A stretch of 38,278 nucleotides of DNA from an uncultured Oscillospiraceae bacterium. Lineage in GTDB: Bacteria; Bacillota; Clostridia; Oscillospirales; Oscillospiraceae. This document shows positions 1 through 38,278 of this stretch, piece by piece. How positions within the stretch are numbered: position 1 is the first letter of the stretch; the number at the start of each line of letters is the position of its first letter. The notes beneath the pieces were generated by a model that was not told the origin of the DNA, made no database searches, and saw only the letters and a program-made list of their open reading frames with translations. The translations under genes and the position numbers were made by a program. The DNA lies in contig CANQZJ010000016.1 in assembly GCA_947628315.1 (NCBI GenBank), forward strand, positions 1-38,278, given 5' to 3'.

Positions 1-24
1 ACCCCTAGCATCGCCGGCTCTTCG

Positions 25-47
25 AAAATTCTCCGGGGGAGATTTTT
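25..47 (+). terminator. Terminator-like hairpin at the left edge
   Basis: Arms 25-34 and 38-47 pair over ten positions with one T-T mismatch around a GGG loop. The core is TCTCC/GGAGA, flanked by an A run on the left and a T run on the right, so the structure could act in both directions. It probably ends the transcript that enters from the left and separates it from the late operon that starts near 205. The GC core is short, so efficiency is uncertain. Confidence 0.5.
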
Positions 48-50
48 CCT

Positions 51-131
51 GAGAGTCTTCCGGCTGCCCGAACGCCCGAAATGAGTCCACTCGCTCCCTC
101 AGTTCGACGTTCGGGCATTCGGAGGACTCTC
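51..131. repeat. Large imperfect inverted repeat upstream of the late operon
   Basis: Two nested inverted repeats are visible. The outer arms are 51-62 and 120-131, 12 nt with one mismatch. The inner arms are 68-80 and 110-122, 13 nt with one mismatch. Together they form a bulged stem with a loop of about 29 nt just upstream of the packaging genes. No T tract follows, so it is not a simple terminator. A protein-binding site, an mRNA leader structure or a packaging (pac/cos-type) site near the terminase genes are possible. The sequence does not decide among them. Confidence 0.5.
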
Positions 132-204
132 GGTAAGTGCTGAAAACTACCTGAAAACCCACCAATCTTAGGGGTGAACATGGAGGAAAGCTGAGGAGAC
201 AGAA
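132..204 (+). promoter_or_regulatory. Leader of the late operon with short direct repeats
   Basis: This gene-free stretch holds two copies of CTGAAAAC at 140-147 and 151-158, an 11-nt period that would put them on one face of the helix. A four-codon mini-ORF (ATG at 180, TGA ending at 194) runs into the ribosome site GAGGAG (193-198) of the first gene. I see no convincing -35/-10 pair. An activator-dependent late promoter is an inference. Confidence 0.3.
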
Positions 205-549
205 ATGAGCCGCTCTAAAAGCACCGACAAACCGGCCAAGAAGCCACGGCGTACCCGCAGGGCCCGCACTCCGGAGGAGCGAGAGCAGGAGATGATAGGG
301 CTCGCGATGGACTTGGCGGAGGAACAGCTCAGGAACGGCACTGCTTCAGCACAGGTCATAGCCCATTTCCTCAAACTCGGGTCTACGAGAGAGAAGGCCG
401 AGCTGGACATGATTCGCAGAAAGACGGAAAATCTCGATGCAAAGACCGAGAGCATACGTCAGGGCGGTCATATCGAGGAACTTTACGCCGAGGCGATGAG
501 GGCCATGCGGGAATACAAGGGACTTGACGCGGATGAAGACGTACAGTGA
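205..549 (+). CDS. Possible small terminase subunit or packaging-associated protein
   Basis: This is a 114-residue, strongly charged, mostly helical protein. The first 30 residues are Lys/Arg-rich, then helices run through residues 30-85 with an acidic C-terminus. The ATG follows GAGGAG (193-198) by 6 nt. Proteins of this size and type commonly sit first in late operons of gut siphophages, before HNH and terminase genes, and are often named small terminase. Small terminases bind the packaging site and hand DNA to the large subunit. I see no textbook helix-turn-helix, so the assignment rests on position, size and charge. It overlaps the HNH gene by a few codons, which suggests translational coupling. 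A DNA-binding regulator is the main alternative. Confidence 0.5.
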   Translation: MSRSKSTDKPAKKPRRTRRARTPEEREQEMIGLAMDLAEEQLRNGTASAQVIAHFLKLGSTREKAELDMIRRKTENLDAKTESIRQGGHIEELYAEAMRAMREYKGLDADEDVQ

Positions 550-952
550 GTGCGTCTCCCTTCCGACGTTCAAAGAAAGGTTCGACTACCTGAAATTAAC
601 CGGTGTGGTCGGAGAGAGGACCTTCGGTCGGGAGAGAAGTCTCAATCAGGAGCTCTATCATTCCCCAGAATGGCAGAAAGTTCGGAGCGAGTGCATAATT
701 CGGGACGGTTCGTGCGACTTGGCGGTGCCGGACAGGTACATCCGGCGCTTCATAGTCGTGCATCACATCCGCCCCGTCACGGAGGAGCAGATACTCAGCC
801 GGGACCCGTGCCTCTGGGACCCGGAGAACCTCATATGCGTACATTTCCAGACGCACAACGCCATACACTACGGGGACTTCTCACTGATAGACGCCCCCGT
901 CTCCGTGGAACGACGCCCAAACGACACATGCCCTTGGAAAGGAGGGACGTGA
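533..952 (+). CDS. HNH endonuclease
   Basis: The product is 139 residues from the ATG. An in-frame TTG at 524 is possible, but AAGGGA (517-522) is better spaced for 533. The HNH signature lies in the C-terminal half: HH at 77-78 in a VVHHIRPV context, N99 in PENLICVH, then H108/N109 and H112. HNH nucleases next to terminases are known in many HK97-type phages to help terminase-dependent cleavage of concatemers during packaging. That role is inferred here from position. There are no clear zinc-binding CxxC pairs. It overlaps the previous gene, and its TGA overlaps the next ATG (ATGA-type junction), so the first three genes look coupled. Confidence 0.88.
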   Translation: MKTYSECVSLPTFKERFDYLKLTGVVGERTFGRERSLNQELYHSPEWQKVRSECIIRDGSCDLAVPDRYIRRFIVVHHIRPVTEEQILSRDPCLWDPENLICVHFQTHNAIHYGDFSLIDAPVSVERRPNDTCPWKGGT

Positions 953-1536
953 TGGGAAGTGGTGGACGAGATACGACAGACGGCAAGGATGTGGCGCCTG
1001 CACCTGAAGCTGGTGGGACAGAGGCACGCACTTATCCGAGCCAAACGCAGGCATCGCCGGATTCTTCAGCAGCATCGTCTTCTGACCTCTCTTCTGAGCA
1101 GGTTCGGGAGTCAATCCTCCTCTCCGTCAAGCAGGCTCTGGGCATAGTGCCCGACTACCGGCCCTTCGACGATGCCATAATCATGCACATCAACTCGGTG
1201 TTCTCGACGCTCCACCAGTTGGGCGTCGGGCCCGCCGAGCCCTTCTACATCACGGGCGACGAGGAGCGCTGGGAGGACTTCATAAATCAGGAAGCCACCC
1301 AGATGGCGCGCTCCTACATGTACTACAAGGTGCGTCTCCTGTTCGACCCGCCGACCGCGAACTCCTCCATGTACGATTCCTTCGACAAGCTCACGAAGGA
1401 GTACGAGTGGAGGCTTCGCGTGGCCGGCGACGAGGACAGGAGGCTGCACGGGACCGTGTCCGCGTCAAACCGAGAGGAGACGTCGGGCGACTTCGACGAC
1501 CTGCCGGGAGGAGGGACCGAAGATGTTGGTTGGTGA
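952..1536 (+). CDS. Head-tail connector (head completion) protein
   Basis: The product is 194 residues. The ATG overlaps the HNH stop and follows GGAGGG (941-946). From about residue 50 the sequence reads as the gp6-like connector family common in gut phages: an ESILLSVKQALGI start, then DDAIIMHINSVFSTLHQLGVG, and a late YMYYKVRLLFDPP block. These proteins form a ring under the portal that joins head to tail. The first 50 residues are Ser/Ala/Pro-rich and extend beyond what the family usually has. They look disordered. Its position before the large terminase, not after the capsid gene, is a noteworthy order. It overlaps the next gene by 14 nt. Confidence 0.82.
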   Translation: MGSGGRDTTDGKDVAPAPEAGGTEARTYPSQTQASPDSSAASSSDLSSEQVRESILLSVKQALGIVPDYRPFDDAIIMHINSVFSTLHQLGVGPAEPFYITGDEERWEDFINQEATQMARSYMYYKVRLLFDPPTANSSMYDSFDKLTKEYEWRLRVAGDEDRRLHGTVSASNREETSGDFDDLPGGGTEDVGW

Positions 1537-2017
1537 GAACGAGCTCAGGCACTACGGCGTCCTAGGCATGAAGTGGGGCGTCAGGCACGACCGCAAGCGG
1601 AGCGGGGCCGGCTCGAAGCGCAAGGCCGAGGCCAAGAGGGCGCCGACTCCAAAGAGCACCGCCAAGGCCAAGGTCCCGCTCAGCGAGGCCGGCGGCAAGA
1701 GGGCGGCGTCCAAGGTCTCGCAGATGTCGGACGCCGAGCTCAACCGGCAGATTAGGCGCCTCCAGCAGGAGCGCGAGTACAACCGGCTCACGAACGAGGT
1801 CCGCAAGCCCCGCCGCACGGCGGCCAAGAACATGGCGGCCGCCACGGCCAAGAGCGCCGCCAGCAACGTGGCCTCCGCGCTCACCAGCGCCGCCATAATC
1901 ATGGCCCTCTCCAGAGCCTTCGACTCCACCCACAGCAAGGACCTCGCCGAGCTGGGCGAGATGACGGTGGCGGGGCTCCGCAACAAGGCCGGCGTCGGGA
2001 AGAAGAAGCAGAGATGA
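1523..2017 (+). CDS. GMKWGV-motif head-module protein A
   Basis: This 164-residue, very basic protein has the motif HYGVLGMKWGVR at about residues 10-21. A Lys/Arg/Ala-rich helical middle follows, then a hydrophobic Ala-rich stretch around residues 105-130 (AAASNVASALTSAAIIMALS-like) that could be a membrane or packed helix. The same motif recurs in the genes at 3769 (twice) and 5615. It is a recognised but uncharacterised N-terminal signature of proteins in gut-phage head modules, and I know of no established function. The start overlaps the connector gene, and GGAGGAGGG lies upstream. Its stop overlaps the terminase ATG. A minor capsid or packaged protein is an inference from location. Confidence 0.8.
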   Translation: MLVGENELRHYGVLGMKWGVRHDRKRSGAGSKRKAEAKRAPTPKSTAKAKVPLSEAGGKRAASKVSQMSDAELNRQIRRLQQEREYNRLTNEVRKPRRTAAKNMAAATAKSAASNVASALTSAAIIMALSRAFDSTHSKDLAELGEMTVAGLRNKAGVGKKKQR

Positions 2018-3759
2018 GCCTCTCCAACACCGCCACGCCCAGATACTACGGGGAGTTCCGGAGGAAGGTGCTCGCCGGGGAGATTCCCGTCTGCAAGGAA
2101 ATCTCGATGGAGATGAACCGCATCGACGACCTCATCGCCAACCCCGGCGTCTACTACGACGAGGAGGCCATAAACGGCTGGAAGAAGTTCTGCGAGGACG
2201 AGCTGACGCTGACCGACGGCGGGGACGTCCACCTTCTGGACACGTTCCTCCTGTGGGGCGAGCAGCTCTTCGGCTGGTTCTACTTCACGGAGCGCTCCGT
2301 CTTCGTCCCGGACGAGAACGGTGGCTCCTACGTCAACAAGTGGATTAAGCGCCGGCTCGTGAACAAGCAGTACCTCATCGTCGGGCGCGGGGCCGCCAAG
2401 ACCATGTACGGCAGCTTCATCCAGAACTACTTTCTCAACGTGGACACCTCCACCACCCATCAGATAACCGTGGCCCCGACCATGAAGCAGGCGGAGGAGG
2501 TCCTCGCCCCCATCCGCACGTCCATAACGAGGCACAAGGGCCCGCTGTTCGAGTTCCTCACCGAGGGCTCGCTCCAGAACACCACCGGGAGCAAGATGAA
2601 CCGGCAGAAGCTGGCCTCGACGAAGAAGGGCATCGAGAACTTCCTGACCGGGAGCCTGCTCGAAATCCGGCCCATGTCCATCGAGAAGCTTCAGGGCCTC
2701 CGGACCAAGTGCAACACCGTCGACGAGTGGCTCTCCGTGGACATCCGCGAGGACGTGGTGGGCGCCATCGAGCAGGGTGCCGCCAAGGTGGACGACTGGC
2801 TCATCATAGCCATGTCCTCCGAGGGAACGGTGCGCAACGGGGCCGGGGACGACATCAAAATGGAGCTGATGTCCATCCTCAAGGGGGACTACGTCAACCC
2901 GCACGTCTCCATCTGGTACTACAGGCTCGACGACATCGACGAGGTCAACTACCCGATGATGTGGGTGAAGGCCAACCCGAACCTCGGGAAGACCGTCTCC
3001 TACGAGACCTACCAGCAGGACGTCGAGAGGGCCGAGCACAACCCGACGGCGCGCAACGACATCCTCGCCAAGCGCTTCGGCATCCCGATGGAGGGGTACA
3101 CGTACTTCTTCACCTACGAGGAGACCCTCCCGCACCGCAAGAGGGACTATTGGAAGATGGCCTGCTCCCTCGGGGCGGACCTCTCGCAGGGCGACGACTT
3201 CTGCGCGTTCACGTTCATGTTCCCGCTGGACAGCACCATGGACACGTTCGGGATAAAGACGCGCAGCTACATCTCATCCCGCACGTTGCAGAAGCTCCCC
3301 GGGTCGATGCGTCAGAAGTACGAGGAGTTCATGCGGGAGGGGTCGCTGATAGTCCTCAACGGGACCATCCTCGACATGAACGAGGTCTACGAGGACCTCG
3401 ACCTCCACATCCAGCAGTGCGACTACGACGTGCGCACCTTCGGGTACGACCCGTACAACGCCAAGGACTTCGTCCAGCGATGGGAGCAGGAGCACGGGTC
3501 GTTCGGCGTCGAGGTCGTGAAGCAGGGTGTGAAGACCGAGTCCGTCCCGTTGGGGGAGCTCAAGAAGCTCGCCGAGGACAGGGCCCTCCTGTTCGACCAG
3601 AAGCTCATGACGTACACCATGGGGAACTGCATCGTCATGGAGGACAACAACGGCAACCGCAAGCTCCTCAAGAAGCGGTACGACCAGAAGATAGACAACG
3701 TGTCGGCCATGATGGACGCCTTCGTGGCGCTCAAGAACAACCGCGACTACTTCGACTAG
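2014..3759 (+). CDS. terL: Terminase large subunit
   Basis: This 581-residue protein matches the usual length of phage packaging motors. The ATPase half has a Walker A-like VGRGAAKT at residues 123-130 and a Walker B region VDEW with D237/E238. The nuclease half has acidic residues in the expected order: D389 in GADLSQGDD, D479 in GYDP, and D561/D568 in KIDNVSAMMDA. It would bind the portal, pump DNA into the prohead using ATP and cut the concatemer. The ATG at 2014 overlaps the previous TGA. It sits between two GMKWGV-motif genes, and the portal gene comes two genes later. Nothing suggests truncation. Confidence 0.95.
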   Translation: MSLSNTATPRYYGEFRRKVLAGEIPVCKEISMEMNRIDDLIANPGVYYDEEAINGWKKFCEDELTLTDGGDVHLLDTFLLWGEQLFGWFYFTERSVFVPDENGGSYVNKWIKRRLVNKQYLIVGRGAAKTMYGSFIQNYFLNVDTSTTHQITVAPTMKQAEEVLAPIRTSITRHKGPLFEFLTEGSLQNTTGSKMNRQKLASTKKGIENFLTGSLLEIRPMSIEKLQGLRTKCNTVDEWLSVDIREDVVGAIEQGAAKVDDWLIIAMSSEGTVRNGAGDDIKMELMSILKGDYVNPHVSIWYYRLDDIDEVNYPMMWVKANPNLGKTVSYETYQQDVERAEHNPTARNDILAKRFGIPMEGYTYFFTYEETLPHRKRDYWKMACSLGADLSQGDDFCAFTFMFPLDSTMDTFGIKTRSYISSRTLQKLPGSMRQKYEEFMREGSLIVLNGTILDMNEVYEDLDLHIQQCDYDVRTFGYDPYNAKDFVQRWEQEHGSFGVEVVKQGVKTESVPLGELKKLAEDRALLFDQKLMTYTMGNCIVMEDNNGNRKLLKKRYDQKIDNVSAMMDAFVALKNNRDYFD

Positions 3760-3768
3760 GGAGGGAAG

Positions 3769-5613: not shown

Positions 5614-5614
5614 G

Positions 5615-6277: not shown

Positions 6278-6295
6278 CATATGGAAGGGGGACGT

Positions 6296-7609
6296 ATGGC
6301 ATCGGACGACAAGCCGCGCTTCCGCGACAGGCTGGCCCATGCTTGGAACGCCTTCACGAGCGAGCAGACGACGCTCGCCCCTCCCGTCGTATACGGGCCG
6401 ATGACATCCTACGTCCCGTATCAGACGATGTCCTCGGGCTACAGGTTCTCCACCGCGGACAAGACCATCATCACGGCCGTCTACAACCGGCTCGCCACGG
6501 ACATATCGCTCGTGAACATCATGCACGTGCGCGTGGACGAGAACGGCGGGTTCCTCGGGACCATGGACAGCGGCCTGAACAACTGCCTGACCGTGGAGGC
6601 CAACATCGACCAGACCGCGCGGGAGTTCATCATGGACCTCTCGCTCTCCCTCTTCGACGAGGGCGTGGTCGCCGTCGTTCCCGTGGAGACGCAGCGCAGC
6701 CCGGTGACGTACGACTCCGTCGACATCCGCACCATGCGGGTGGCGAAGATAACCAACTGGATGCCCCGCTACGTGGGGCTTGAGGTCTATGACGACCGCG
6801 ACGGTCGGCGAAAGCCCATCGTCATGCCGAAGAGCGCCGTGGCCATCATCAAGAACCCGTTCTACAACGTCATGAACGCCCAGAACAGCACCCTGAAGCG
6901 ACTCGTGAGGAAGCTGAACACGCTGGACGTCGTCGACGACCAGATTGGGTCGAAGAAGCTGGACCTCATCATCCAGCTCCCGTACGTCATCAAGAGCGAC
7001 ACGCAGCGCAATCAGGCCAACGAGCGCCGGCAGGCAATCGAGGACCAGCTGGCGAACTCCAAGTACGGAATAGCCTACACGGACGGCACCGAGCGCATCA
7101 CGCAGCTCAACCGCTCCATAGAGAACAACCTCCTCCCGCAGGTGGAGTACCTCCAGAAGATGCTCTACTCGCAGCTGGGCCTGACGGAGGAGATTCTCAA
7201 CGGCACCGCGGACGAGAACGCGATGCTGAACTACTACACGAGGACCATCAATCCGTTCCTGAATGCCATCTGCGACGAGATGGAGCGGAAGTTCCTCACG
7301 AAGACCGCTCGTACACAGCTTCAGGCGATTCGCTACTACCGCGAGCCGTTCAGCCTCACCACCTCCGAGAAGATAGCAGACCTCGCTGACAGACTAACAC
7401 GCAACGAGATACTGTCTCCGAACGAGATGAGGGGCATCATCGGCTTCCGCCCGGTGGCGGACGAACGCGCCGACGAGCTTCGCAACAGGAACCTCAACCC
7501 CTCGGAGTTCGAGGCCCTCGACCCGGTGATGACCACGCCCGGAGAGGAGCCCGAGTACCCCGAGGACGGTGGTGTGTACGAAGTCCCCAATGAAGACCAG
7601 TTGTACTGA
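6296..7609 (+). CDS. Portal protein (HK97-type)
   Basis: The product is 437 residues from ATG 6296, chosen because GGAAGGGGG lies just upstream. The alternative ATG at 6281 has no ribosome site. Landmarks typical of the family are an early SSGYRFSTADKTIITAVYNRLATDIS block, DIRTMRVAKITNWMPRYVGLEVYDD, and the conserved LTEEILNGTADENAMLNYYTRTINPFL region near residues 290-320. This is followed by the NEILSPNEMRGIIGF C-terminal region. The dodecameric portal forms the DNA channel at one vertex and docks the terminase and then the connector. It is followed by the protease-capsid gene, as expected for an HK97 head module. Confidence 0.92.
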   Translation: MASDDKPRFRDRLAHAWNAFTSEQTTLAPPVVYGPMTSYVPYQTMSSGYRFSTADKTIITAVYNRLATDISLVNIMHVRVDENGGFLGTMDSGLNNCLTVEANIDQTAREFIMDLSLSLFDEGVVAVVPVETQRSPVTYDSVDIRTMRVAKITNWMPRYVGLEVYDDRDGRRKPIVMPKSAVAIIKNPFYNVMNAQNSTLKRLVRKLNTLDVVDDQIGSKKLDLIIQLPYVIKSDTQRNQANERRQAIEDQLANSKYGIAYTDGTERITQLNRSIENNLLPQVEYLQKMLYSQLGLTEEILNGTADENAMLNYYTRTINPFLNAICDEMERKFLTKTARTQLQAIRYYREPFSLTTSEKIADLADRLTRNEILSPNEMRGIIGFRPVADERADELRNRNLNPSEFEALDPVMTTPGEEPEYPEDGGVYEVPNEDQLY

Positions 7610-7629: not shown

Positions 7630-9498
7630 ATGGCATACGATTTCAGCGGGTATGCGACCAAGAACGACATCCGTTGCTCCGACGGTCGCGTAATCCGCAG
7701 CGGTGCGTTTCAGGACTGCGACGGCAAGACCGTCCCACTGGTCTGGAACCACCTTCACACGGAGATGGAGAACGTCCTCGGCCACGCCCGGCTTGAGAAC
7801 CGCAACGACGGCGTGTACGCCTACTGCACGCTGAACGACACGGAGGCCGGCCGTCAGGCGCGCGCCCTCGTGAAGAACGGCGACCTCACGGCGCTCTCCA
7901 TCTACGCCAACGAGCTCCAGCAGCAGGGTGCCAACGTCGTCCACGGGAACATCCGCGAGGTCAGCGTCGTGCTGTCCGGCGCGAATCCCGGGGCGATGAT
8001 TGACAACCTGAGCTTCGAGCATGACGGCATGTTCGACCCAATCGACGACGAGGCCATCATCTACTCGGGTCTTGAGCACTCCGTGTCCCTCGCCCATCAG
8101 GCCGGCGGCGCCGTCGCGGAACGCATCCCCGTCGAGGAGAGGGAAGAGGAGGGTGCACCCGAGCCCACCGTTCAGGACATCCTCGACACGCTCACCGAGG
8201 ACCAGATGGACGCCGTCTACGCGCTCATCGGCGCCACCGTTCAGGACCTTGAGGACGGGGAGGCCGAGGACTACGCGGACGACGAGGACTATGACGAGGA
8301 GATTGAGCAGAGCGGCATCTCGGACGGCGAGTCCGACTCGATGGCGCAGAGCGACTCAGAAGAGGGGGTTGCCCTTATGAACCAGAACGTTTTCGACAAC
8401 GACGCCGAGGCCATCCAGCACGACGGCGTGATGACCAAGACCGAGATGGAGTCCATCTTCGCGGACGCCCGCCGCATCGGCAGCCTCAAGGAGGCCGTCA
8501 TCGAGCACGGCTTCGAGGACCTCACCGTCTCCGAGCCCTCCGTCTCCATGCAGGACCGGGCCCTCGCGCACGGCGTCGAGACCATCGACATGCTGTTCCC
8601 CGACTTCAAGAACATCCCCTCCTCCCCCGCGGTGCTCGCGCGCCCGATGGAGTGGGTGTCCGGCGTCCTCGGCGGCATCTCCAAGAGCCCGTTCAACCGC
8701 ATCCGCTCGATGGCCTTCGACATCACGGCCGAGGAGGCCCGTGCACGGGGATACATCAAGGGCAAGAAGAAGGTCGAGGAGCAAATCAAGGCGCTCAAGC
8801 GGACCACCACCCCGCAGACCGTCTACAAGCTCCAGAAGCTCGACCGTGACGACGTCATCGACATCACCGACTTCGACATCGTCGCGTTCCTCAAGTCCGA
8901 GATGCGCATGATGCTCGACGAGGAGCTCGCCCGGGCCATCCTCGTCGGCGACGGCCGCACCGCCATCGACGAGAGCAAAATCAAGGAGGACAACATCCGT
9001 CCGGTGTGGGGCGACGACGAGGTCTACACCATCAATCACCGGTACGACACCAAGCCCTCCTCCAAGGAGGAGCTGGAGCAGTTCATCGACGACATCATCC
9101 GCAGCCGCAAGGACTACCGCGGCTCCGGCAACCCGACGCTCTTCATCGGGACCGACCTGCTCACCGAGATGCGCCTCATCCGAGACGCCGACGGCTACCG
9201 TCGCTACAAGAACGACACCGAGCTCGCTCAGGACCTCCGCGTCTCCAAGATTGTCGACGTGCAGCTGCTCGACGGCCTCAAGCGCGAGGTCTCCGGCAAG
9301 CAGCGCGAGTTCGGCGCGCTCATCGTCAACCTGCGCGACTACACCATGGGCGCCACCCGCGGCGGTCAGGTCACGCTGTTCGACGACTTCGACCTGAACT
9401 ACAACAAGATGGAATACCTCATCGAGACCCGCTGCTGCGGCGCCCTCACCCAGCCGAAGTCCGCACTCGCCTTCGAGTTCGGAGAGGCCGAGGATTAG
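7630..9498 (+). CDS. Prohead protease fused to major capsid protein
   Basis: The product is 622 residues. Residues 1-130 form an S78-type prohead protease with H41 in VWNHLH and S90 in LTALSIYAN, the expected catalytic pair. Residues 135-248 are acidic and helical (VQDILDTLTEDQMDAVYALI), resembling a scaffolding delta region. From M250 onward an HK97-fold capsid protein runs to the end, with long-arm and E-loop-like segments, then FIGTDLLTEMRLI and YLIETRCCGALTQPKSAL. Protease, scaffold and capsid in one ORF are known in some gut phages. Cleavage near residue 250 would release the capsid subunit. An internal ribosome site and ATG at 8377 could also make capsid protein directly. Confidence 0.9.
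   Translation: MAYDFSGYATKNDIRCSDGRVIRSGAFQDCDGKTVPLVWNHLHTEMENVLGHARLENRNDGVYAYCTLNDTEAGRQARALVKNGDLTALSIYANELQQQGANVVHGNIREVSVVLSGANPGAMIDNLSFEHDGMFDPIDDEAIIYSGLEHSVSLAHQAGGAVAERIPVEEREEEGAPEPTVQDILDTLTEDQMDAVYALIGATVQDLEDGEAEDYADDEDYDEEIEQSGISDGESDSMAQSDSEEGVALMNQNVFDNDAEAIQHDGVMTKTEMESIFADARRIGSLKEAVIEHGFEDLTVSEPSVSMQDRALAHGVETIDMLFPDFKNIPSSPAVLARPMEWVSGVLGGISKSPFNRIRSMAFDITAEEARARGYIKGKKKVEEQIKALKRTTTPQTVYKLQKLDRDDVIDITDFDIVAFLKSEMRMMLDEELARAILVGDGRTAIDESKIKEDNIRPVWGDDEVYTINHRYDTKPSSKEELEQFIDDIIRSRKDYRGSGNPTLFIGTDLLTEMRLIRDADGYRRYKNDTELAQDLRVSKIVDVQLLDGLKREVSGKQREFGALIVNLRDYTMGATRGGQVTLFDDFDLNYNKMEYLIETRCCGALTQPKSALAFEFGEAED
8361..8379 (+). promoter_or_regulatory. Internal ribosome site and ATG for the capsid domain
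   Basis: AGAGGGGG at 8361-8368 stands 8 nt before an in-frame ATG at 8377, which encodes M250 of the protease-capsid fusion. This falls exactly at the predicted border between scaffold and capsid. It would let the cell make many capsid subunits per protease. The sequence also encodes Glu-Glu-Gly, so chance is possible. Confidence 0.5.
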
Positions 9499-10329: not shown

Positions 10330-10338
10330 GAGGTGCGA

Positions 10339-11859
10339 ATGGCAGCTCTCGTATGGGATGCGGTCGGCGAACACCGGTTTGAAATCGGAGTCGACCACGG
10401 CATCCTGTTCCCCGTCAAGAACGGCAAGTACCAGACAGGCGTCGCTTGGAACGGCCTGACGGCCGTAACGGAGAGCCCAGAGGGCGCAGAGCCCAACGAC
10501 CAGTACGCGGACAACATCAAGTACCTGACCCTCCGCTCCACCGAGACCTTCAACGCGACCATCGAGGCGTTCACGTACCCGGACGAGTTCCTTGAGTGCG
10601 ACGGCACGCTCAGCCCGATGGCCGGCGTGCACTTCGGGCAGCAGACGCGCACCCCGTTCGGCTTCGCCTACCGCACGAAGGTGGGCAACGACGTTCAGGG
10701 AATGGACGCCGGGTACATCCTCCATCTCATCTACGGCTGCACGGTCTCCCCGGCCGAGCGCTCGTACCAGACGGTGAACGACTCGCCCGAGGCCATGACG
10801 TTCAGCTGGGAGCTGGACTCCACGCCGGTTCAGGCGCCCGGTTACAAGCCGGTCTCCTCGGTCACAATCAACTCGACCGAGGTCTCCCCGGAGATGATGG
10901 CACGCATCGAGGCCGTCCTCTGCGGGAGCGTAACCGGTGACCCGCGGCTCCCGATGCCGGACGAGATTCCCGGAATCCTGTCGACGCCCATGGCGTTCTT
11001 CAAGGTCTCCGTGCCAGATGAGTCGCTCGAAGTCGGCAACCGCACCATCGCCGACTTCATCGACGACGTCAAGGTGGACGACGAGGCCGGCGCCATGTCC
11101 GGCACGGTCAAGAAGGTGCGCGGATGGAGCGGGCCCGGCCCCAGCGTCCAGAATATCAGCAACTACATCCTGCCGGTGAAGCTTGAGCAGGACCCGGGCA
11201 AGACCGTCCGCCTCAGCGTCAAGAGCAAGGACGGCGGCGTGCTGGCGACCCTCAAGGGGCGCAACGGCATCGAGTACGTCATCGTGCCCAAGAACCACGA
11301 CGGCGCCTACGTGCGCATCCAGCAGTCGGACTCCGGCGACCTCGCCGAGGACGTGACCGTCGAGCAGGACTACGACCTGAGCGGCATCGCGTACGAGGAG
11401 TCCTCGGCACCCGCCGACCAGATGGAGCCCAGCACCACGTCCACGTACATCAAGCAGTACATGGACGAGAAGCACCCGGACAAGACGGTGGACGACCTTC
11501 AGTCGAACCTCGTCATCCGCAACACCGGCGACGCGAGCTACCAGCTTGAGGGTACGGTCCACTACGTCACGGGCTTCACGTCATTCTACGACAAGGAGAG
11601 CCCGGACGGGCGCTTCGCCATCTTCCGCTTCGCACCGAAGGACAAGACGCATCGCATCGGATGCAAGGGCTCCGAGGCGAAGGGCGGGAACGACTCCGTC
11701 TTCGACGCGAACGACTTCATCGTCCTCGCGCGTCTCGACGGGTACATGGAGCAGGAGGACCACTCCCTGACCGTCTACGAGTACGCCGCGGACGGCCAGC
11801 AGAAGCTCAACACCTTCACCTTCGACCTCGACACCCTCACCTTCGACCTCAGGCAGTAA
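10339..11859 (+). CDS. Major tail protein, long paralogue
   Basis: The product is 506 residues, starting at ATG 10339 behind AGGAGG. The first 215 or so residues are the tail tube domain: ALVWDAVGEHRFEIGVDHGI, then the NGLTAVTESPEGAEPNDQYADN region and the VNDSPEAMTFSWELDS signature. They are about four-fifths identical to the next gene. The remaining ~285 residues, after the LPMPDEI block, are absent from the neighbour. They contain charged beta-rich segments (HDGAYVRIQQSDSGDLAEDV, GTVHYVTGFTSFYDKESPDG) that could decorate the tube surface. Tail tube proteins polymerise around the tape measure. Confidence 0.88.
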   Translation: MAALVWDAVGEHRFEIGVDHGILFPVKNGKYQTGVAWNGLTAVTESPEGAEPNDQYADNIKYLTLRSTETFNATIEAFTYPDEFLECDGTLSPMAGVHFGQQTRTPFGFAYRTKVGNDVQGMDAGYILHLIYGCTVSPAERSYQTVNDSPEAMTFSWELDSTPVQAPGYKPVSSVTINSTEVSPEMMARIEAVLCGSVTGDPRLPMPDEIPGILSTPMAFFKVSVPDESLEVGNRTIADFIDDVKVDDEAGAMSGTVKKVRGWSGPGPSVQNISNYILPVKLEQDPGKTVRLSVKSKDGGVLATLKGRNGIEYVIVPKNHDGAYVRIQQSDSGDLAEDVTVEQDYDLSGIAYEESSAPADQMEPSTTSTYIKQYMDEKHPDKTVDDLQSNLVIRNTGDASYQLEGTVHYVTGFTSFYDKESPDGRFAIFRFAPKDKTHRIGCKGSEAKGGNDSVFDANDFIVLARLDGYMEQEDHSLTVYEYAADGQQKLNTFTFDLDTLTFDLRQ

Positions 11860-11875
11860 GAGAGGAGTGACACGC

Positions 11876-12547
11876 ATGTCCGCACTAGTATGGGACAAGG
11901 TCGGCGAACACAAGTTCGAGATTGGCGTCGACCATGGCGTCATCTACCCAGTCAATCAGGAGACCGGCGAGTACCAGAACGGCGTCGCTTGGAACGGCCT
12001 GACGGCCGTCACCGAGAGCCCCGAGGGCGCCGAGCCCAACGACCAGTACGCCGACAACATCAAGTACCTAACCCTCCGCTCCACCGAGACCTTCGGCGCG
12101 ACCATCGAGGCGTTCACGTACCCGGAGGAGTTCGCCCTCTGCGACGGCTCCGCCGAGCTGTCGGACGGCGTGCGAATCGGCCAGCAGCCGCGCATCCCGT
12201 TCGGGTTCGTGTACCGCACCAAGGTGGGCAACGACGTTCAGGGCATGGACGCCGGCTACCTCCTGCACGTGGTCTACGGCTGCACGGTATCCCCGTCCGA
12301 AAGGGCCTACCAGACCGTCAACGACTCGCCGGAGGCCATGACGTTCAGCTGGGAGCTGGACTCCAACCCCGTGCCGGTCACCGGCCACAAGCCCGCGTCC
12401 ACCGTCACCATCGACTCCACCCTCGTGGAACCCGAGAAGCTCAAGAGGCTTGAGGACTACCTCTTCGGGACCGAGGGCGAGCTGCCCGAGAACGAGCCCC
12501 GAATCCTCCTTCCCGACGAAATCGTCGCACTCATGGAGGGCGACTGA
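11876..12547 (+). CDS. Major tail protein, short paralogue
   Basis: The product is 223 residues, ATG 11876 behind AGAGGAG. It repeats the tube domain of the preceding gene almost residue for residue (VAWNGLTAVTESPEG, QYADNIKYLTLRSTETF, KVGNDVQGMDAGY, VNDSPEAMTFSWELDS). It ends 16 residues past the point where the long paralogue continues into its C-terminal extension (RILLPDEIVALMEGD against RLPMPDEIPGIL). This looks like a recent tandem duplication, with the extension gained or lost in one copy. The phage may build a mixed tube of plain and decorated subunits, or use one for the tube and one for a terminal ring. That is an inference. Confidence 0.88.
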   Translation: MSALVWDKVGEHKFEIGVDHGVIYPVNQETGEYQNGVAWNGLTAVTESPEGAEPNDQYADNIKYLTLRSTETFGATIEAFTYPEEFALCDGSAELSDGVRIGQQPRIPFGFVYRTKVGNDVQGMDAGYLLHVVYGCTVSPSERAYQTVNDSPEAMTFSWELDSNPVPVTGHKPASTVTIDSTLVEPEKLKRLEDYLFGTEGELPENEPRILLPDEIVALMEGD

Positions 12548-14192: not shown

Positions 14193-14576
14193 GTGTCCAT
14201 AGTAACCGTTTCCTCGTCCGGCGACTTCGGGAAGATGGAGAAGTTCCTTCAGGCCATGGCCGAGGAACGTGAATTCGCCAGAATCGAGGAGTTCGCCGCA
14301 CGGGGAGTGGAGGCTCTGGCCGCCGCCACCCCGGTGCGCACCGGTGCGACCGCCGCCGCGTGGGACTACGAGATAGAGCGCGGTGGCGGCAACGTCACGA
14401 TAAACTGGACGAACAGCAACGAGAACGACGGGTTCAACGTCGCCGTCGGCCTCCAGTACGGTCACGGCACCGGCACCGGGGGCTACGTGCCGGCGATTGA
14501 CTACGTCAACCCCGCGATGCGGGACGTGTTCCAGCAGATAGCCGACGAGGTCTGGGGGGAGGTCGAGAGGGCGTGA
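14193..14576 (+). CDS. HK97 gp10-like tail/neck protein
   Basis: The product is 127 residues. It starts at GTG 14193 behind AGGGGGTAGG. Helix-rich residues 10-45 are followed by ALAAATPVRTGATAAAWDYEI, then NWTNSNENDGFNVAVGLQYGHGTGTGGYVPAIDYVNPAM, the recognisable core of gp10-like proteins. These act at the head-tail joint or tail terminus. In most phages this gene lies nearer the head-closure genes. Here it has been placed directly before the tape measure. Its stop overlaps the GTG start of the tape measure gene. Confidence 0.82.
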   Translation: MSIVTVSSSGDFGKMEKFLQAMAEEREFARIEEFAARGVEALAAATPVRTGATAAAWDYEIERGGGNVTINWTNSNENDGFNVAVGLQYGHGTGTGGYVPAIDYVNPAMRDVFQQIADEVWGEVERA

Positions 14577-21730: not shown

Positions 21731-22962
21731 TTCAGTCAGTGACCATAGACAACTTCCTCGGCGAGCGCGTCACGTGCGACTTGGACAACCCGTTCGGGCA
21801 CGGCCTCAACGTCACCGGTGTGGACGGCATAGCGCCGGAGAACATAGGCATCGTGACGCAGGACCTAGCCCTGCTGGACGGGTCGGTGTACTCATCCAGC
21901 AGGGCCCCCGAGCGGGAGATTACAATCTCGTTCAGGTTCCTCGGGGTCGGCACGGACGACGTGGAGCAGACGAGGCACCGTCTCTACAGGTGCTTCGGCG
22001 GGCTCGGTCGCCCCGTGCGGCTCCACTTCCAGACCGAGGACAACGTCCTCTACATAGACGGGCTCGTCAAGTCCTCGACGGCGGACATCTTCAGCGACAG
22101 CGAGACCGCCGCCGTGACAATCGTCTGCCCGGACCCGTGGTTCAGGTCGGAGACGGTCCTGAAGACCGTGGTGTTCGACCACATCAACGAGGGCGAGGGC
22201 TTCGAGTTCGACGCCAAGGACTACGGCTACGAGATTCAAAATAGGATTGAGTTCGGGTCCTACGACAGCAGGTACGCGTTCAGGGACTCGGTGTCGTTCG
22301 AGGTGTACAACCCGGGGGACCGGGACATAGGGTGCATCATCAGGGCGATGTGCACGAAGAACACCGACGTGGACGGCTCGATAAAGCTCATGCACATATC
22401 GTTCGAGAACTCTACGACCGGGGAGCTCTCCATGGCCAACCTCTCCACCGAGAAGGACGAGGTTCTGGAGTTCCACCAGTGGGACATCTACGAGATGAAC
22501 TCGATACCCGGCTACAAGATGATTAACTTCTACAAGTACGGGGTCACTGACGAACGCTCCCACGCGCGGGTGTCGGACACCTACAAGGTCATGCCGGCGC
22601 TCCCGTGGGAGCAGGTCCCGGACTTCTTCTCCAAGACGTGGGCGGAGCAGGCCAAGCTCATGACGGACTACCGGGAGCGGTACGCCGGATGGTTCCCGAG
22701 GCTGACCGAGGCCGCCTACCCCATGGGGTACTTTCAGGACTCCGAGCTGCTCTACAACGGCGGCAAGGGGGTCCCGGCCGACACGTACACGGTCACACCC
22801 CACCTCAACCTGTACGACAGGAACCACAAGTGGTTCAAGTTGCAGAAGGGGTGGAACACCGTGCAGGTCGGCCTCCGGAGCGGGCACTGGGGCGACAGCA
22901 AGAACGAGCTGCCGAACTTCGAGGTGTCCATCGAATACGAGCCTATGTACGAGGGGGTGTGA
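21727..22962 (+). CDS. Distal tail protein (Dit-like)
   Basis: The product is 411 residues. The ATG overlaps the tape measure TGA. It opens MIQSVTIDNFLGERVTCDLDNPFGHGLNVTGVDGIAP, followed by the APEREITISFRFLG strand pattern and the VCPDPWFRS turn that mark the siphovirus tail-tip family. The N-terminal half would form the hexameric ring closing the tail tube. The C-terminal half (from about 190) carries a beta-sandwich and an inserted helical region near residues 290-335 (PDFFSKTWAEQAKLMTDYRE), then a final beta domain. It is followed by the hub gene in the usual order. Confidence is high for the tail-tip role, less for any carbohydrate binding by the C-terminal part. Confidence 0.88.
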   Translation: MIQSVTIDNFLGERVTCDLDNPFGHGLNVTGVDGIAPENIGIVTQDLALLDGSVYSSSRAPEREITISFRFLGVGTDDVEQTRHRLYRCFGGLGRPVRLHFQTEDNVLYIDGLVKSSTADIFSDSETAAVTIVCPDPWFRSETVLKTVVFDHINEGEGFEFDAKDYGYEIQNRIEFGSYDSRYAFRDSVSFEVYNPGDRDIGCIIRAMCTKNTDVDGSIKLMHISFENSTTGELSMANLSTEKDEVLEFHQWDIYEMNSIPGYKMINFYKYGVTDERSHARVSDTYKVMPALPWEQVPDFFSKTWAEQAKLMTDYRERYAGWFPRLTEAAYPMGYFQDSELLYNGGKGVPADTYTVTPHLNLYDRNHKWFKLQKGWNTVQVGLRSGHWGDSKNELPNFEVSIEYEPMYEGV

Positions 22963-25124: not shown

Positions 25125-27053
25125 ATGGCCATAACCAGCGGATTCTTCGATTCCATCAACCACGACCGTCGGTACACGGCCAGCCAGTTCGGTGGAATCA
25201 TGGACTACCTCATCACGGATGGGGTGTACTCGTACTACCCGGACACGGGGGTCGTGTACGACGAGCGCGAGAAGCGCAACCGCACCATCGCGCCATTCAA
25301 AATAAGCACGGTGTCCGGCACGGATGCTTGGAAGGTCCCCACCGGGGACGGCGTCGTGGTGGGTCCGGGGCGCGCTTGGTTCGACCACACATGGACCCAC
25401 GTCTCCACCCCGGAGATTGTGACGCTCCCGCCGGCCCCCAAGACCGGTGACAGAATCGACGTCGTCGTCCTCCAGATGAACAAGACGGAGTCGGTGAGGG
25501 CCAACCGCATCGTCGCCAAGTCGGCGCTGAAGACCTTCGAGAACGGCGAGCTGCATCTGTCGGCCAGACTTCCGGCGAACGTCCCCAAGCCCAACGACGC
25601 CGACTACAACACGCTCAAGGACTTCTTCCCGGAGCTCCTCGGCTCGTACATGCACAACGACGAGGTGCACGACGTCCCCCTCGCGTACATATACCGTCCC
25701 GTCGGAGTCAACGGGGTGAGCGTCAACAACATCTACACGGCGGTCGGGCTCAAGGAGTGCCCGTACGTGACGACCATCGGGGACAGCACGTTCTCGGTGG
25801 ACACCATCTACCTCAACTGGTCGCAGCAGTTCGAGACTTGGTGGGAGGACTACAAGCAGCGGATTCAGGATGAGTACAGCGACTGGCACGCCAACATCCT
25901 CGCCGTGGGCCCCGAGTGGGAGGCGTTCCTCAACGAGAGGGCCGCCGACTTCATGCGGTGGCTCAAGATGTACGACCGCATGTGGCACGTCTGGTATCAG
26001 GGCTCGGTGAACTTCACGTACGAGCAGCTCCGCAAGTTCGAGGCCGCGCAGGGTGACTTCCAGTCCAGATGGGCCTCCGCCATCACCAAGGCCGAGTACC
26101 TCATCGAGAACGGCATATCCGAATACACGAAGAAGATTGAACAGCTCATCTCCCAGATGTCCGACATCGACAATCTGGTCGACGCCAAGACGAAGGAGCT
26201 TGAGGCCAAGGTCGACGAGGTCACCGAGGAGCTCGAACAGACCCTGCGCGACTCCGCCAAGGAAGTGGTGACGGAGGTCATTCGGGAGAACATCCAGACC
26301 ATATCCGAGACGGTGGTCGAGCTGGCCGCCCCGGACATCGAGCAGTCGCTTCGCGAGGACGTCCTCAACTCCTTCGGCGACGACATAGAGGGAATCGTCA
26401 AGGAGAAGGTCGACGCGATGGCCTTCTCCGTCCAACAGCAGGTGGCCAATCAGGTGGAGAGTCTCGCAAGTCAGTACGAGGCCCTCCTCACCTCGCTTCG
26501 GGACGATGTCGCTACCGCGGTCTCGGATGCGTTCCAGAACGAAGAGTCCATGACGGAGATGTTCAAGTCGATACTGGACCCCCTCGTGAACGAGTACGTC
26601 AGGACGTACATACAGGACCGGCTGGACGAGCTCGTCGACGAGGACCTCGCGTCCCGCGTGACGGCCACACTGGCCCTCACCCAATTCGCCGAGACCGACC
26701 TGAACAGGTATTACGGCGACAAGTACGCAGGACGGACGTTCCATCAGACCGCCGAGCAGGTCCTGACCAACGGCCCTGACGGGGTCGACAGATTCTCCGT
26801 GCAGGTGGTCAAGACCGGCCCTTCGAGTACGGCGCAGCTCCTCTTCGCCGCGGACGGGTCGTCCGTCTGGTTCCGCTCCGGCGCCGACGGGACCGTATCC
26901 GATGAGGGTGTCGAGACCGAGACGTACTCCGCCGTGTGGCAGAAGCTCTATCCAGCTCCCGCCGGGGAGATATCCGACGTTGTCGAGAAGAGGCTCAAGG
27001 CGCTCGAAGACGACATGACGGTGGTCAAGCGCGACTACCTCGAACGCGGGTAG
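25125..27053 (+). CDS. Tail tip / receptor-binding baseplate protein
   Basis: The product is 642 residues. The N-terminus MAITSGFFDSINHDRRYTASQFGGIMDYLITDGVY, followed by GRAWFDHTW and RIDVVVLQMNKTESVRANRI, is the widespread baseplate-anchored module of gut siphophage adhesion proteins. Residues 320-480 form a long helical stalk rich in Glu/Lys/Val. The C-terminal 140 residues are a compact beta region (PDGVDRFSVQVVKTGPSSTAQLLFAADGSSVWFRSG) before a short coiled end. It would trimerise and hold or contain a receptor-binding head. It starts 2 nt after the hub gene. No enzymatic motif is visible. Confidence 0.78.
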   Translation: MAITSGFFDSINHDRRYTASQFGGIMDYLITDGVYSYYPDTGVVYDEREKRNRTIAPFKISTVSGTDAWKVPTGDGVVVGPGRAWFDHTWTHVSTPEIVTLPPAPKTGDRIDVVVLQMNKTESVRANRIVAKSALKTFENGELHLSARLPANVPKPNDADYNTLKDFFPELLGSYMHNDEVHDVPLAYIYRPVGVNGVSVNNIYTAVGLKECPYVTTIGDSTFSVDTIYLNWSQQFETWWEDYKQRIQDEYSDWHANILAVGPEWEAFLNERAADFMRWLKMYDRMWHVWYQGSVNFTYEQLRKFEAAQGDFQSRWASAITKAEYLIENGISEYTKKIEQLISQMSDIDNLVDAKTKELEAKVDEVTEELEQTLRDSAKEVVTEVIRENIQTISETVVELAAPDIEQSLREDVLNSFGDDIEGIVKEKVDAMAFSVQQQVANQVESLASQYEALLTSLRDDVATAVSDAFQNEESMTEMFKSILDPLVNEYVRTYIQDRLDELVDEDLASRVTATLALTQFAETDLNRYYGDKYAGRTFHQTAEQVLTNGPDGVDRFSVQVVKTGPSSTAQLLFAADGSSVWFRSGADGTVSDEGVETETYSAVWQKLYPAPAGEISDVVEKRLKALEDDMTVVKRDYLERG

Positions 27054-32229: not shown

Positions 32230-32240
32230 GAGGCGAGCAC

Positions 32241-32902: not shown

Positions 32903-32911
32903 GGATTCAAA

Positions 32912-33870: not shown

Positions 33871-33879
33871 GGGGGACCC

Positions 33880-34206: not shown

Positions 34207-34216
34207 GAGGGAGAGA

Positions 34217-35161
34217 ATGGGAAACAACGCGAACGACGTCCTCAGCGTGGCCCGCGGCGAGTTGGGATATTCCCGCGCCGCGGACCCCCAGAGGGGCTCC
34301 AAGTACGGCCGCTGGTACGGAGCCAAGTACGGCGACGTGTTCGTCGAGGCCGCATGGTGCTACATGTTCGTCAGCTGGGTCTTCAACCAAGCCGGGGCGA
34401 CCGCGCCCTGCATCCCCGGCGCGTATTGCCCCACCGGCGTGAACCAGACCAAGGCCGCCGGCAGGAACGTGGCGGCGAGGAGCGCCGTGGCGGGCGATAT
34501 CGTGTTCTTCGACTGGGGACCGGACGGGACGTCGGACCACGTGGGCATCGTCGAGTCCAACAACGGCTCGTACCTGACGACCATAGAGGGGAACACCGGC
34601 GGCGGCTCCGGGTACGTCCAGAGGCGCACCCGCGCATATTCCACGGTCTGCGCGGTGTGCCGTCCGACGTACGGAGGGGCGAGCCCGTCCATCGACCCGC
34701 AGAAGGGCGGGAGGACCGGCGCGGACGCCATCCGGGACATGCAGGAGTACCTGAGGAAGTGGGGGTACGACCTTGGACCGCGGGGAGCGGACGGCCTGAC
34801 CAACCCGGACACCGCCAAGGCGCTCGTGTCCTACATCCAGTACAACATGAACGCCTACGGCGAGGGGCTCACGGTCGACGGTGTCCTCAGTGACACAGTG
34901 GTCAACCTGTGGCGCGACAAGTACGGACCGGTGTATTCCGAGAGGGCTGTGGACTACGGTCGCGACAACTACCTCTACATGGTCAAGGCCGTGCAGATGG
35001 GGTTGGAGTTCTGGGGGCTCAGCATCGGGCCGGACGGCATCGACGGGTCCTGCGGCCCCGCAACGACCGCCGCCATCCGACAGTTGCAGCAGGGGCACCA
35101 TCTGGAGGTCGACGGCGTGGCCGGGCCGGACACCCTTCGCGACATGGTGACGATGAGGTGA
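34217..35161 (+). CDS. Endolysin: CHAP peptidase with two peptidoglycan-binding domains
   Basis: The product is 314 residues, ATG 34217 behind GGAGGGAG. The CHAP domain spans about 1-150: C48 in AAWCYMFVSWVF, H108 in GTSDHVGIVES and E124/N126 in TIEGN, the expected catalytic set of amidase/endopeptidases that cleave peptidoglycan. Two PG_binding_1-like domains follow at about 168-228 and 252-312, each with a GYDLGP/GLSIGP start and a DGxxGP(A/D)T turn. No signal peptide is visible, so release should depend on a holin. It sits after three membrane-protein genes and before fibre genes. Confidence 0.93.
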   Translation: MGNNANDVLSVARGELGYSRAADPQRGSKYGRWYGAKYGDVFVEAAWCYMFVSWVFNQAGATAPCIPGAYCPTGVNQTKAAGRNVAARSAVAGDIVFFDWGPDGTSDHVGIVESNNGSYLTTIEGNTGGGSGYVQRRTRAYSTVCAVCRPTYGGASPSIDPQKGGRTGADAIRDMQEYLRKWGYDLGPRGADGLTNPDTAKALVSYIQYNMNAYGEGLTVDGVLSDTVVNLWRDKYGPVYSERAVDYGRDNYLYMVKAVQMGLEFWGLSIGPDGIDGSCGPATTAAIRQLQQGHHLEVDGVAGPDTLRDMVTMR

Positions 35162-35165
35162 GGCC

Positions 35166-37020
<1,855 letters not shown>

Positions 37021-37628
37021 CGACGGGCCCTCAGGGCTACACGGGTGCGACCGGTTCCGCCGGGAGGGACTGCTACTCGTACGCGGGCACGTGGTACCAC
37101 TGGATAAACAGCACAAGCTCTACCTTGTGGGGTTCGGTGCCCAGTGGCATATGGACGACCGGGACCGGGTGGAGCTCCTCCTTCTCCGCAGCGTCGATGG
37201 GTAACTCCTACGGGGGATACCTTGTCGGACTCCCCACGGTCGTGGGCGACACGTACCAGCCGTACGCCTGCCTGCTCGTCTCGAACGCCGTCATCGGGAC
37301 GGATGGAGGGGCGCTCAGCTCGACGAGGACGCCCACGCTTACGGTCGGATGGGCAGGAGGCACCACGGGCACGAAACCCCATGCGACGACCGCGCAGACC
37401 ATAGGGTACGGGGTGGTGCACGACAGCCGCATACTGTGGAGTGCATGGTCGGACACGGCGTGGGTCCTATACCAGTATGCGAACAAGTACACGCCCGTGT
37501 GCGTGCAGGTGGTATATCCGGGAGGGACCTTCTCGCTGCTGTCGCCGGTGACCGACAACGTCTACAACAACTCCGAATTCGCAGGCAAATACTTCAGTGG
37601 CGTGTTCATGTACAACCGCCTGCTCTGA

Positions 37629-37698
37629 CACGGGTCGCACATATTTTACGGCCCATAGTGAAGAGCCGTAGCGAGAGAATGCTATGAAAGGAGCGAGC
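37629..37698 (+). promoter_or_regulatory. Gap with a small inverted repeat before the 37699 gene
   Basis: A 6-nt inverted repeat (37647-37652 and 37665-37670) with a 12-nt loop follows a short T run. It is too weak to call a terminator. The gap ends in ATGAAAGGAGCGA (37684-37696), a mini-leader that contains the ribosome site of the next gene. The same 13-mer recurs at 38176. No clear promoter is seen. Confidence 0.3.
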
Positions 37699-38055
37699 AT
37701 GGACATAAAGCGATTGAAGCAGGAGGAGGAGTGTCTGCACGCGGTGATGAGCGGTCTCTACGACGCGCTGCAAGGCGCGGACGAGGGGTCCGAGCACTAC
37801 CGTCAGCTGCTGATACAGCTCAAGCTGGCGCAGACCGTTCAACGCGACCAAGCCTCGGTGATATTCGAGTACGAGAGGGACAACCGGGCTACGCCGTGGT
37901 GGGAGGTCGTCGACTGGGGGCTGGTCACGCAGGTGTCCGTGGGCGCCGGTCTCCTCGGACTGTGCCTCGTGCTTGAGGCGTCGGCCAAGGGAATCATCAC
38001 GCCGCCGAAGTGGATACGGTCGATATTGCACATCGGAACCGCCGGTTTGCTCTAG
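37699..38055 (+). CDS. Small membrane protein of unknown role
   Basis: The product is 118 residues from ATG 37699, 5 nt after AAAGGAG. An in-frame ATG at 37684 precedes that site and is unlikely. The first 70 residues are charged and helical (KRLKQEEECLHAVMSGLYDALQG, HYRQLLIQLKLAQTVQRDQASVIFEYERD). A transmembrane helix follows at about 78-100 (VTQVSVGAGLLGLCLVLEA), then SAKGIITPPKWIRSILHI. Proteins with this plan (coiled helix, one membrane span, G-x-I-T-P/S-x end) occur in gut phages without known function. It is the last gene before the terminator. Confidence 0.65.
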   Translation: MDIKRLKQEEECLHAVMSGLYDALQGADEGSEHYRQLLIQLKLAQTVQRDQASVIFEYERDNRATPWWEVVDWGLVTQVSVGAGLLGLCLVLEASAKGIITPPKWIRSILHIGTAGLL

Positions 38056-38088
38056 GGGGGCAAGACGAGGCTGCGGCTCTGACGCGAC

Positions 38089-38130
38089 GGGGTCGTGTGG
38101 ACGCAAAGTCTGCACGGCCCCATATTTTTT
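38089..38130 (+). terminator. Intrinsic terminator of the late operon
   Basis: Arms 38089-38102 and 38108-38121 pair at all 14 positions (three wobbles), with a GCAAA loop. ATATTTTTT follows directly at 38122-38130. It closes the rightward late transcript that covers the whole window and stands 33 nt after the last stop codon. Confidence 0.88.
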
Positions 38131-38159
38131 CAATTCGCAAAAAAATCACATCCTATAAT
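38130..38159 (+). promoter_or_regulatory. Promoter of the next transcript
   Basis: A perfect -10 box TATAAT lies at 38154-38159 in an A/T-rich patch that is unlike the rest of the window. No consensus -35 is present. TTCAAT at 38130-38135 is the nearest candidate, with an 18-nt spacer. It comes right after the terminator and 30 nt before the next start codon. Confidence 0.6.
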
Positions 38160-38189
38160 GAATCTATAAGTCTCCATGAAAGGAGCGAC

Positions 38190-38278
38190 ATGGTCGGAAT
38201 CAAGGAGCTTGCGATTCTCGGAGGCGTCGCCTTCGGGGCATCGTTCGCGGGCAGCTTCGCCGGCACCGCGGTGAACGG
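38190..38278 (+). CDS. Start of a hydrophobic protein, cut by the window edge
   Basis: ATG 38190 follows AAAGGAG by 5 nt. The 29 visible codons read MVGIKELAILGGVAFGASFAGSFAGTAVN with no stop before the edge. The Ala/Gly/Phe-rich stretch is probably a membrane helix or signal-like segment. It belongs to the transcript driven by the TATAAT promoter. The family cannot be judged from this fragment. Confidence 0.5.
   Translation, partial: MVGIKELAILGGVAFGASFAGSFAGTAVN

Follow-up and report, generated by a model that had tools for sequence, protein, structure and literature searches.

The contig CANQZJ010000016.1, analyzed here over 38,278 nucleotides (1..38278, the window), is a fragment of a tailed-phage genome that has lost several restriction sites. 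Judged by the size order of the neighboring contigs C15 and C17, the window apparently represents an entire contig of its metagenome bin (C16:1-38278), and it holds a siphophage structural and lysis region. Four recognition sites, GATC, CCWGG, CTCGAG, and CTGCAG, have been purged from it; AGGCCT was probably purged as a fifth and is the weakest case of the five. We consider it highly probable (about 0.88) that selection removed these sites because several orthodox Type II restriction enzymes target them.

Loss of restriction sites from the window

In exact counts over the whole window, GATC, CCAGG, CCTGG, CTCGAG, CTGCAG, and AGGCCT each occurred zero times. Expectations came from 300 rounds of shuffling in which synonymous codons were permuted gene by gene. 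The shuffle was applied to the 34 of the 35 listed forward-strand genes whose reading frame was clean (959-1536 was excluded), covering 92% of the window, and the remainder was left unshuffled. The shuffled mean was 141 for CCWGG (minimum 117) and 130 for GATC (minimum 107); an order-2 Markov model gave 115 and 128, respectively. A first-pass annotation of this DNA had reported both absences, with well over 100 CCAGG/CCTGG sites expected, and had proposed the codon-shuffled control; the counts bear it out. CCSGG, which it had judged normal, was near expectation (153 observed, 158 shuffled mean), showing that related pentamers are not equally missing. CCGG was counted 327 times and GGCC 365 times. 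Twelve other four-base palindromes, including CCGG, GGCC, GCGC, and CATG, had ratios of 0.91-1.21 to the shuffles. In the same comparison, ACGT was somewhat overused (z ~4) and CGCG slightly underused (z ~-2).

All 4-, 5-, and 6-mers and all 3+3 words with gaps of 1-9 were then scanned for depletion against the 300 shuffles. The most depleted words were GATC, CCAGG/CCTGG, and words containing or overlapping either of these, with CTCGAG next. CTCGAG, followed by CTGCAG, led the palindromic hexamers without GATC. For CTCGAG, 29.8 sites were expected under shuffling (minimum at least 17; p ~1e-13) and 29.5 under the order-2 Markov model. The corresponding expectations were 13.5 (p ~1e-6) and 5.7 for CTGCAG, and 8.9 (p 1.3e-4) and 15.4 for AGGCCT. 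When words with the first four sites were removed, AGGCCT topped the 58 palindromic hexamers that were left; the next had a p of 0.046, and none of the other 57 had p < 0.04. GCATGC was also absent and was left out of the purged sites because merely 2.8 copies were expected under shuffling.

We also applied the thresholds for elimination (observed/expected < 0.1 with an expectation > 15) given by Rusinov et al. (2018; PMC6286503), with codon shuffling and the order-2 Markov model in place of that paper's compositional measure. GATC, CCWGG, and CTCGAG lie within these thresholds by both types of expectation. For CTGCAG (14 and 5.7) and AGGCCT (9 and 15.4), the expectation does not exceed 15 by both methods together.

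Codon choice at the removed sites

Site removal ran through synonymous codons. Isoleucine codons following a G-ending codon (n = 116) comprised 65 ATA, 51 ATT, and no ATC, vs 293 ATC, 100 ATA, and 5 ATT after a C-ending codon (n = 398). Among eight other amino acids, the share of T-ending codons after G rose at most about twofold (Tyr, Val). In RosaAsantewaa, a Streptomyces phage with GATC at ordinary frequency, ATC was used in 200 of the 223 Ile codons after G. The hexamers left similar marks. At Leu-Glu pairs, CTC GAG was used in 0 of 53 cases (27 expected), vs 23 for CTT GAG (3.4 expected) and 11 for CTC GAA (2.5 expected). At Leu-Gln pairs, CTG CAG was found in 0 of 47 (12 expected) and TTG CAG in 9 (2.4 expected). 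Several codons often stood at places where a single-step change to a more used synonym would give rise to one of the five sites: ATT (54 of 59), CAA (16 of 32), TTG (26 of 50), CTA (15 of 25), and GCT (17 of 39).

The codon rules of the first-pass annotation fared unevenly. It had stated that a would-be xCC codon before Trp always takes xCT. Among the 47 Ala, Pro, Ser, and Thr codons before TGG, 14 were xCT, the rest being xCG (19), xCA (6), and AGC (8). One such mark is the Ala-Trp sequence GCTTGG at 11987..11992 (+ strand), where GCC would give CCTGG. Six of the nine TTGG coordinates that it quoted were exact, and three were off by 1 to 2 bases. Its rule that Gln before G is CAA when a C precedes was followed in 9 of 9 cases. 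A T-ending codon before Gln-G, also named there, does occur, as T-ending codon plus CAG, in 52 of the 136 cases and not in all of them.

Codon-aligned terminase genes show the same loss. The terminase genes of the Streptomyces phages Annihilus and RosaAsantewaa contain 7 and 6 CCWGG sites and 16 and 13 GATC sites, respectively. All 23 and 19 of these sites are gone in the window, several through synonymous differences.

Relatives, rarity, and published cases

The window's terminase shares 71.6-74.4% identity with its twenty top-matching phage records, which belong to faecal phages and to Streptomyces and Arthrobacter phages, and up to 77% with viral contigs. The capsid is about 50% identical to its best viral-contig matches, and for two tail proteins no relatives were found in the viral contigs. 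To place the pattern, we surveyed 261 loci, made up of loci picked by similarity to the terminase, capsid, or endolysin and of five phage-record stretches. The loci are not all independent, a few coming from one contig, and zeros were counted where the order-2 expectation was at least 5. CCWGG was absent from 17 of 230 loci, GATC from 3 of 261, CTCGAG from 8 of 22, CTGCAG from 13 of 39, and AGGCCT from 5 of 18. Two or more such zeros were found in 7 of the 261 loci, three at most and five in none; few of the loci could show all five, because most fall below the window in both length and GC content. A Clostridia record (L088) combined 0 GATC (31 expected) with 0 CCWGG (8.6 expected), and another locus (L249) had 0 of each as well (31.8 and 7.1 expected).

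Missing words were also seen in two named phages. RosaAsantewaa (L207) had no CTCGAG (26 expected) and no GCATGC (10 expected); its GATC and CCWGG counts were normal, and it carries a different site fingerprint from the window. BitterVaud1 (L206) had 0 CTGCAG (11.6 expected) and 1 GCATGC (14 expected).

Loss of restriction sites is a documented strategy, of which the window is an unusually complete case. According to PMC6286503, it mostly concerns orthodox Type II sites and is stronger in phages that are not temperate; in about one-tenth of viral genomes, it reaches completeness or nearly so. The window resembles those double-stranded DNA phages in that orthodox Type II palindromic sites were eliminated, but differs in losing four, probably five sites together in one 38-kb stretch. 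In Staphylococcus phage K, GATC was eliminated against Sau3A (PMC6532042). This loss is common to both, but the passage on phage K concerns one site, whereas the window is also without CCWGG, CTCGAG, CTGCAG, and probably AGGCCT. No published description of the five-site combination was found in the literature searched.

Candidate enzymes and the host

The loss of sites would have been imposed by restriction enzymes that hosts carry now or carried in the past, and unmodified phage DNA without these sites would be uncuttable by hosts carrying matching systems. We take the enzyme types to be Sau3AI/MboI for GATC, EcoRII/BstNI for CCWGG, XhoI for CTCGAG, PstI for CTGCAG, and StuI for AGGCCT. The bin containing the window (2.69 Mb, 198 contigs, 77% complete) was searched for the EcoRII, DpnII, MutH, and XhoI families. 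A CRISPR link to the host was also considered and dropped, as Cas1 was not found in the bin.

The search for EcoRII/BstNI-type enzymes, suggested in the first-pass annotation, yielded one cassette. It lies not on the phage contig but on another contig of the bin (C3; L103:5703-8474), where a C5 methylase, an endonuclease with EcoRII N and C domains, and Vsr overlap in this order, a tandem restriction-modification (R-M) arrangement. The profile matches were PF09217 (1.8e-28), PF09019 (2.3e-60), PF00145 (5.8e-96), and, for Vsr, PF03852 (1.6e-30). Judged by its family, the cassette would cut CCWGG. Since EcoRII-C was present in only 4 of 300 genomes of the bin's family, a count that includes this bin and one weaker partial match, its presence here is a notable coincidence. 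The contig has a low GC content (~0.44-0.48), and the cassette sits between phage-type and conjugation genes, whose names were partly read from open reading frames (ORFs). Because its contig is a low-GC mobile element and the bin seems mixed with foreign DNA, the cassette is a lead to the phage host and not a proven match.

Host-type contigs of the bin mostly have a GC content of ~0.56-0.66, and one host-type stretch reads as a high-GC gut Firmicute. The bin was rejected as proof of the host, as it mixes such contigs with foreign-looking ones (C7, C3, and C24), which were characterized, except for individually scanned proteins, by reading their ORFs. C7 (L110:95-9034) bears a low-GC tail module with a tape-measure C terminus like that of the window; it is unpurged, with 6 CCWGG and 75 GATC in 20 kb. 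C24 (L298:7353-10885) encodes CcrM-like and Dam-like methylases and, in convergent orientation, a Type II endonuclease (called REase_II by PADLOC and without a Pfam match), downstream of two apparent integrases. This contig reads as a Bacteroides-type conjugative element and is probably misbinned. Its Dam-like methylase was considered as a clue to a GATC system and rejected: because its neighbors are a CcrM-like methylase and an endonuclease of unknown specificity, nothing ties it to GATC cutting. A stretch of a further contig (C11:1-20000; L114) is filled nearly completely by one giant gene, an ORF of ~6,457 codons.

Bifidobacterium was considered as a host and retained as a lead only, from the resemblance of two proteins. 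The endolysin weakly resembles those of Bifidobacterium and Actinomyces phages; the single phage record that matched it over at least 80% of its length was Bifidobacterium phage Bbif-1 (35% identity). One tail protein resembles a Bifidobacterium phage. In published work, CCWGG and CTGCAG systems are described for two Bifidobacterium longum strains (PMC4618763), Sau3AI for Bifidobacterium adolescentis (PMC12016496), and CCWGG methylation for Bifidobacterium kashiwanohense (PMC8112702). The repertoire given in these sources matches three of the window's five sites. The two Bifidobacterium phages that we counted retain CCWGG and GATC, with 84 and 171, respectively, in Bbif-1 and 128 and 151 in 40.6 kb of BitterVaud1. 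Codon usage in the window correlated at 0.95 with a Streptomyces phage, 0.92 with Bbif-1, and 0.88 with bin sequence. These correlations do not decide the host, because the automatic gene caller misread part of the window (Arg usage differs).

Weighing the explanations

The zeros could in principle follow from base composition, codon bias, or a general avoidance of palindromes. The codon bias of the phage is extreme, and 14 host-type stretches (280 kb, GC > 0.55) held 0.26 of the expected CTCGAG, 0.46 of AGGCCT, and 0.74 of CTGCAG; host-type DNA thus underuses CTCGAG and AGGCCT without lacking either. However, shuffles that preserve codon usage and protein never fall below 107 for either main site or below 17 for CTCGAG. 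CCSGG, CCGG, GGCC, and GCGC are near expectation, and no clear depletion is seen among the other palindromic hexamers. Both the codon-shuffle controls and the neighboring words show that the depletion is word-specific. Because the shuffles restore the sites and control words are normal, the zeros are not due to codon bias, composition, or protein sequence. This refutes the explanation for GATC, CCWGG, and CTCGAG, AGGCCT being the weakest case, and leaves it extremely improbable. Hardly more credible is mutational loss, in which the methylated cytosine of CCWGG, and of other methylated sites, decays by deamination with no selection. Many replacements are indeed C-to-T transitions: Ala before Trp is GCT in 8 of 15 cases, and Leu TTG after a C-ending codon was found 17 times when G follows vs 4 times without a following G. 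However, methylation of CCWGG spares its outer C, and at Gln before G it was this C that changed (T-CAG, 52 of 136), far more often than the deamination product C-CAA arose (9). Pro-Gly sites have no synonymous deamination product, yet Pro is CCC or CCG in 27 of 27. GATC is zero too, and host-type bin sequence retains CCWGG and GATC in ordinary numbers.

The first-pass annotation had read the missing GATC and CCWGG as a twofold mark of pressure on Dam-type and Dcm-type sites. Its idea of selection against restriction targets stands, but the two-site scope was too narrow, as the purge of CTCGAG, CTGCAG, and probably AGGCCT had gone unnoticed. In a variant of that idea, the pair would stem from Dam/Dcm biology, such as an attack by modification-dependent enzymes, in some hosts, on phage DNA that carries Dam/Dcm marks. 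GATC and CCWGG are the Dam and Dcm targets, the methylase of the EcoRII-type cassette matches the broad dcm superfamily model, and one methylase on C24 matches the Dam subfamily. CTCGAG and CTGCAG, however, are missing as well, and neither is a target of Dam or Dcm. Rusinov et al. (PMC6286503) ascribe weak avoidance of modification-dependent sites to their overlap with orthodox Type II sites. Because four, probably five unrelated Type II specificities were purged, Dam/Dcm identity adds nothing, and we regard this variant as very unlikely.

Several observations weigh against selection by host restriction enzymes. The order-2 Markov expectation for CTGCAG is low, as given above. Words outside the five sites were also depleted under shuffling, namely, CTTA (23 vs 61), CCTTA (3 vs 21), and, strongly, CCCCCC/GGGGGG (5 vs 27.5); we know of no enzyme that targets CTTA, CCTTA, or CCCCCC. 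We think that the depletion of CTTA, CCTTA, and AATG is a by-product of marker codons (CTT and ATT) shifted out of context. EcoRII requires two sites, and therefore EcoRII alone would hardly force their number to zero. The EcoRII cassette, moreover, may belong to another cell. The DpnII and MutH/Sau3AI families were not found in the 77% complete bin, nor was an XhoI-family enzyme, in a search in which no control matched. Matching enzymes with avoidance across 17 genomes holding relatives did not give a clean result. EcoRII was present in the window's bin alone, although four of the remaining 16 genomes (those of L087, L089, L092, and L098) likewise hold relatives with zero CCWGG; enzyme and avoidance thus fail to coincide across relatives. 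DpnII was present in the L092 and L098 genomes, where GATC was found 30 times (67 expected) and 36 times (74 expected). GATC was scarcer in L085 (3 vs 49 expected) and L086 (7 vs 58 expected), with no DpnII found in these genomes.

Age of the purge

The data do not establish the long exposure to the defense systems that the first-pass annotation had inferred. Transition-type replacements are overrepresented, and a recent purge could be the reason. If a reversible mutation-selection balance is assumed, the ratios ATT:ATA and CTT:CTG should be unchanged at purged positions. In the window, ATT:ATA was 51:65 at positions barred to ATC, compared with 5:100 following C-ending codons (odds ratio 15.7, p 3e-12). 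Leu CTT:CTG was 23:6 before GAG and 1:14 before GAC/GAT (p 4e-6). RosaAsantewaa, which does not avoid GATC, had an ATT:ATA of 19:4 after G and 26:20 after C (odds ratio 3.7, p 0.04); the difference from the window's odds ratio reaches p 0.07 only. Its Leu CTT:CTG was 14:20 and 8:21, respectively (p 0.30), though it likewise lacks CTCGAG. Thus, the replacements may be young, and neighbor-dependent mutation may explain part of the ATT:ATA shift. The raised ATT:ATA after G in RosaAsantewaa makes a recent purge more doubtful. It is accordingly rather unlikely, though worth stating, that the contig records a restriction history in which the phage encountered five Type II specificities over its host range and lost the sites too recently for its codons to be in equilibrium.

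Gene content of the window

All genes named here lie on the + strand. The first listed gene (205..549) encodes a small phage protein of unknown function (phrog_4259). Further downstream lie the genes for the terminase large subunit (2014..3759), the portal protein (6281..7609), and a fusion of head maturation protease and major capsid protein (7630..9498). Four copies of the motif H(Y/H)G(V/I)LGMKWGV (DUF7211) were seen in the neighboring proteins 1523-2017, 3769-5613, and 5615-6277. Two tail genes with a common duplicated stretch occupy 10333..12547; the assignment as major tail protein comes from DNA similarity to Gordonia phages. The duplicated 300 bases (10418-10717 and 11961-12260, 86%) lie near the starts of the two adjacent genes. 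A 2385-aa ORF (14573..21730) is, by size and position, the putative tape measure protein. Next come a Sipho_tail (RIFT-related) protein (21727..22962) and a Sipho_Gp37-like tail protein (22966..25122). The latter had no match in the phage collection and no pattern match in the viral contigs; in the 300 genomes of the bin's family, it was found in its own bin, with short partial matches in two others. A predicted tail/baseplate protein (25125..27053) has N-terminal similarity (26-30%) to four phage records, including Bifidobacterium phage BitterVaud1. The endolysin (34217..35161) combines CHAP and PG_binding_1 domains, and a collagen-like tail fiber gene region (35166..37628) contains three blocks of repeats with a 9-base period (35384-37090). 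No tRNA was found in the window. No replication or lysogeny gene was recognized among the 17 of 35 listed genes scanned against PHROGs or Pfam, and the window is therefore probably part of a genome.

Discussion

Complete removal of four, probably five specificities from a single stretch of phage DNA amounts to a clean natural experiment. The pattern shows how far restriction can bend synonymous codon choice, with many rare codons standing at the removed sites. The combination of GATC, CCWGG, CTCGAG, CTGCAG, and AGGCCT is a fingerprint that can be used for seeking the host among gut bacteria. If the contig does record a recent restriction history, phage sequence would by itself suffice to read from such marks which R-M systems an unknown host possesses and when it acquired them.

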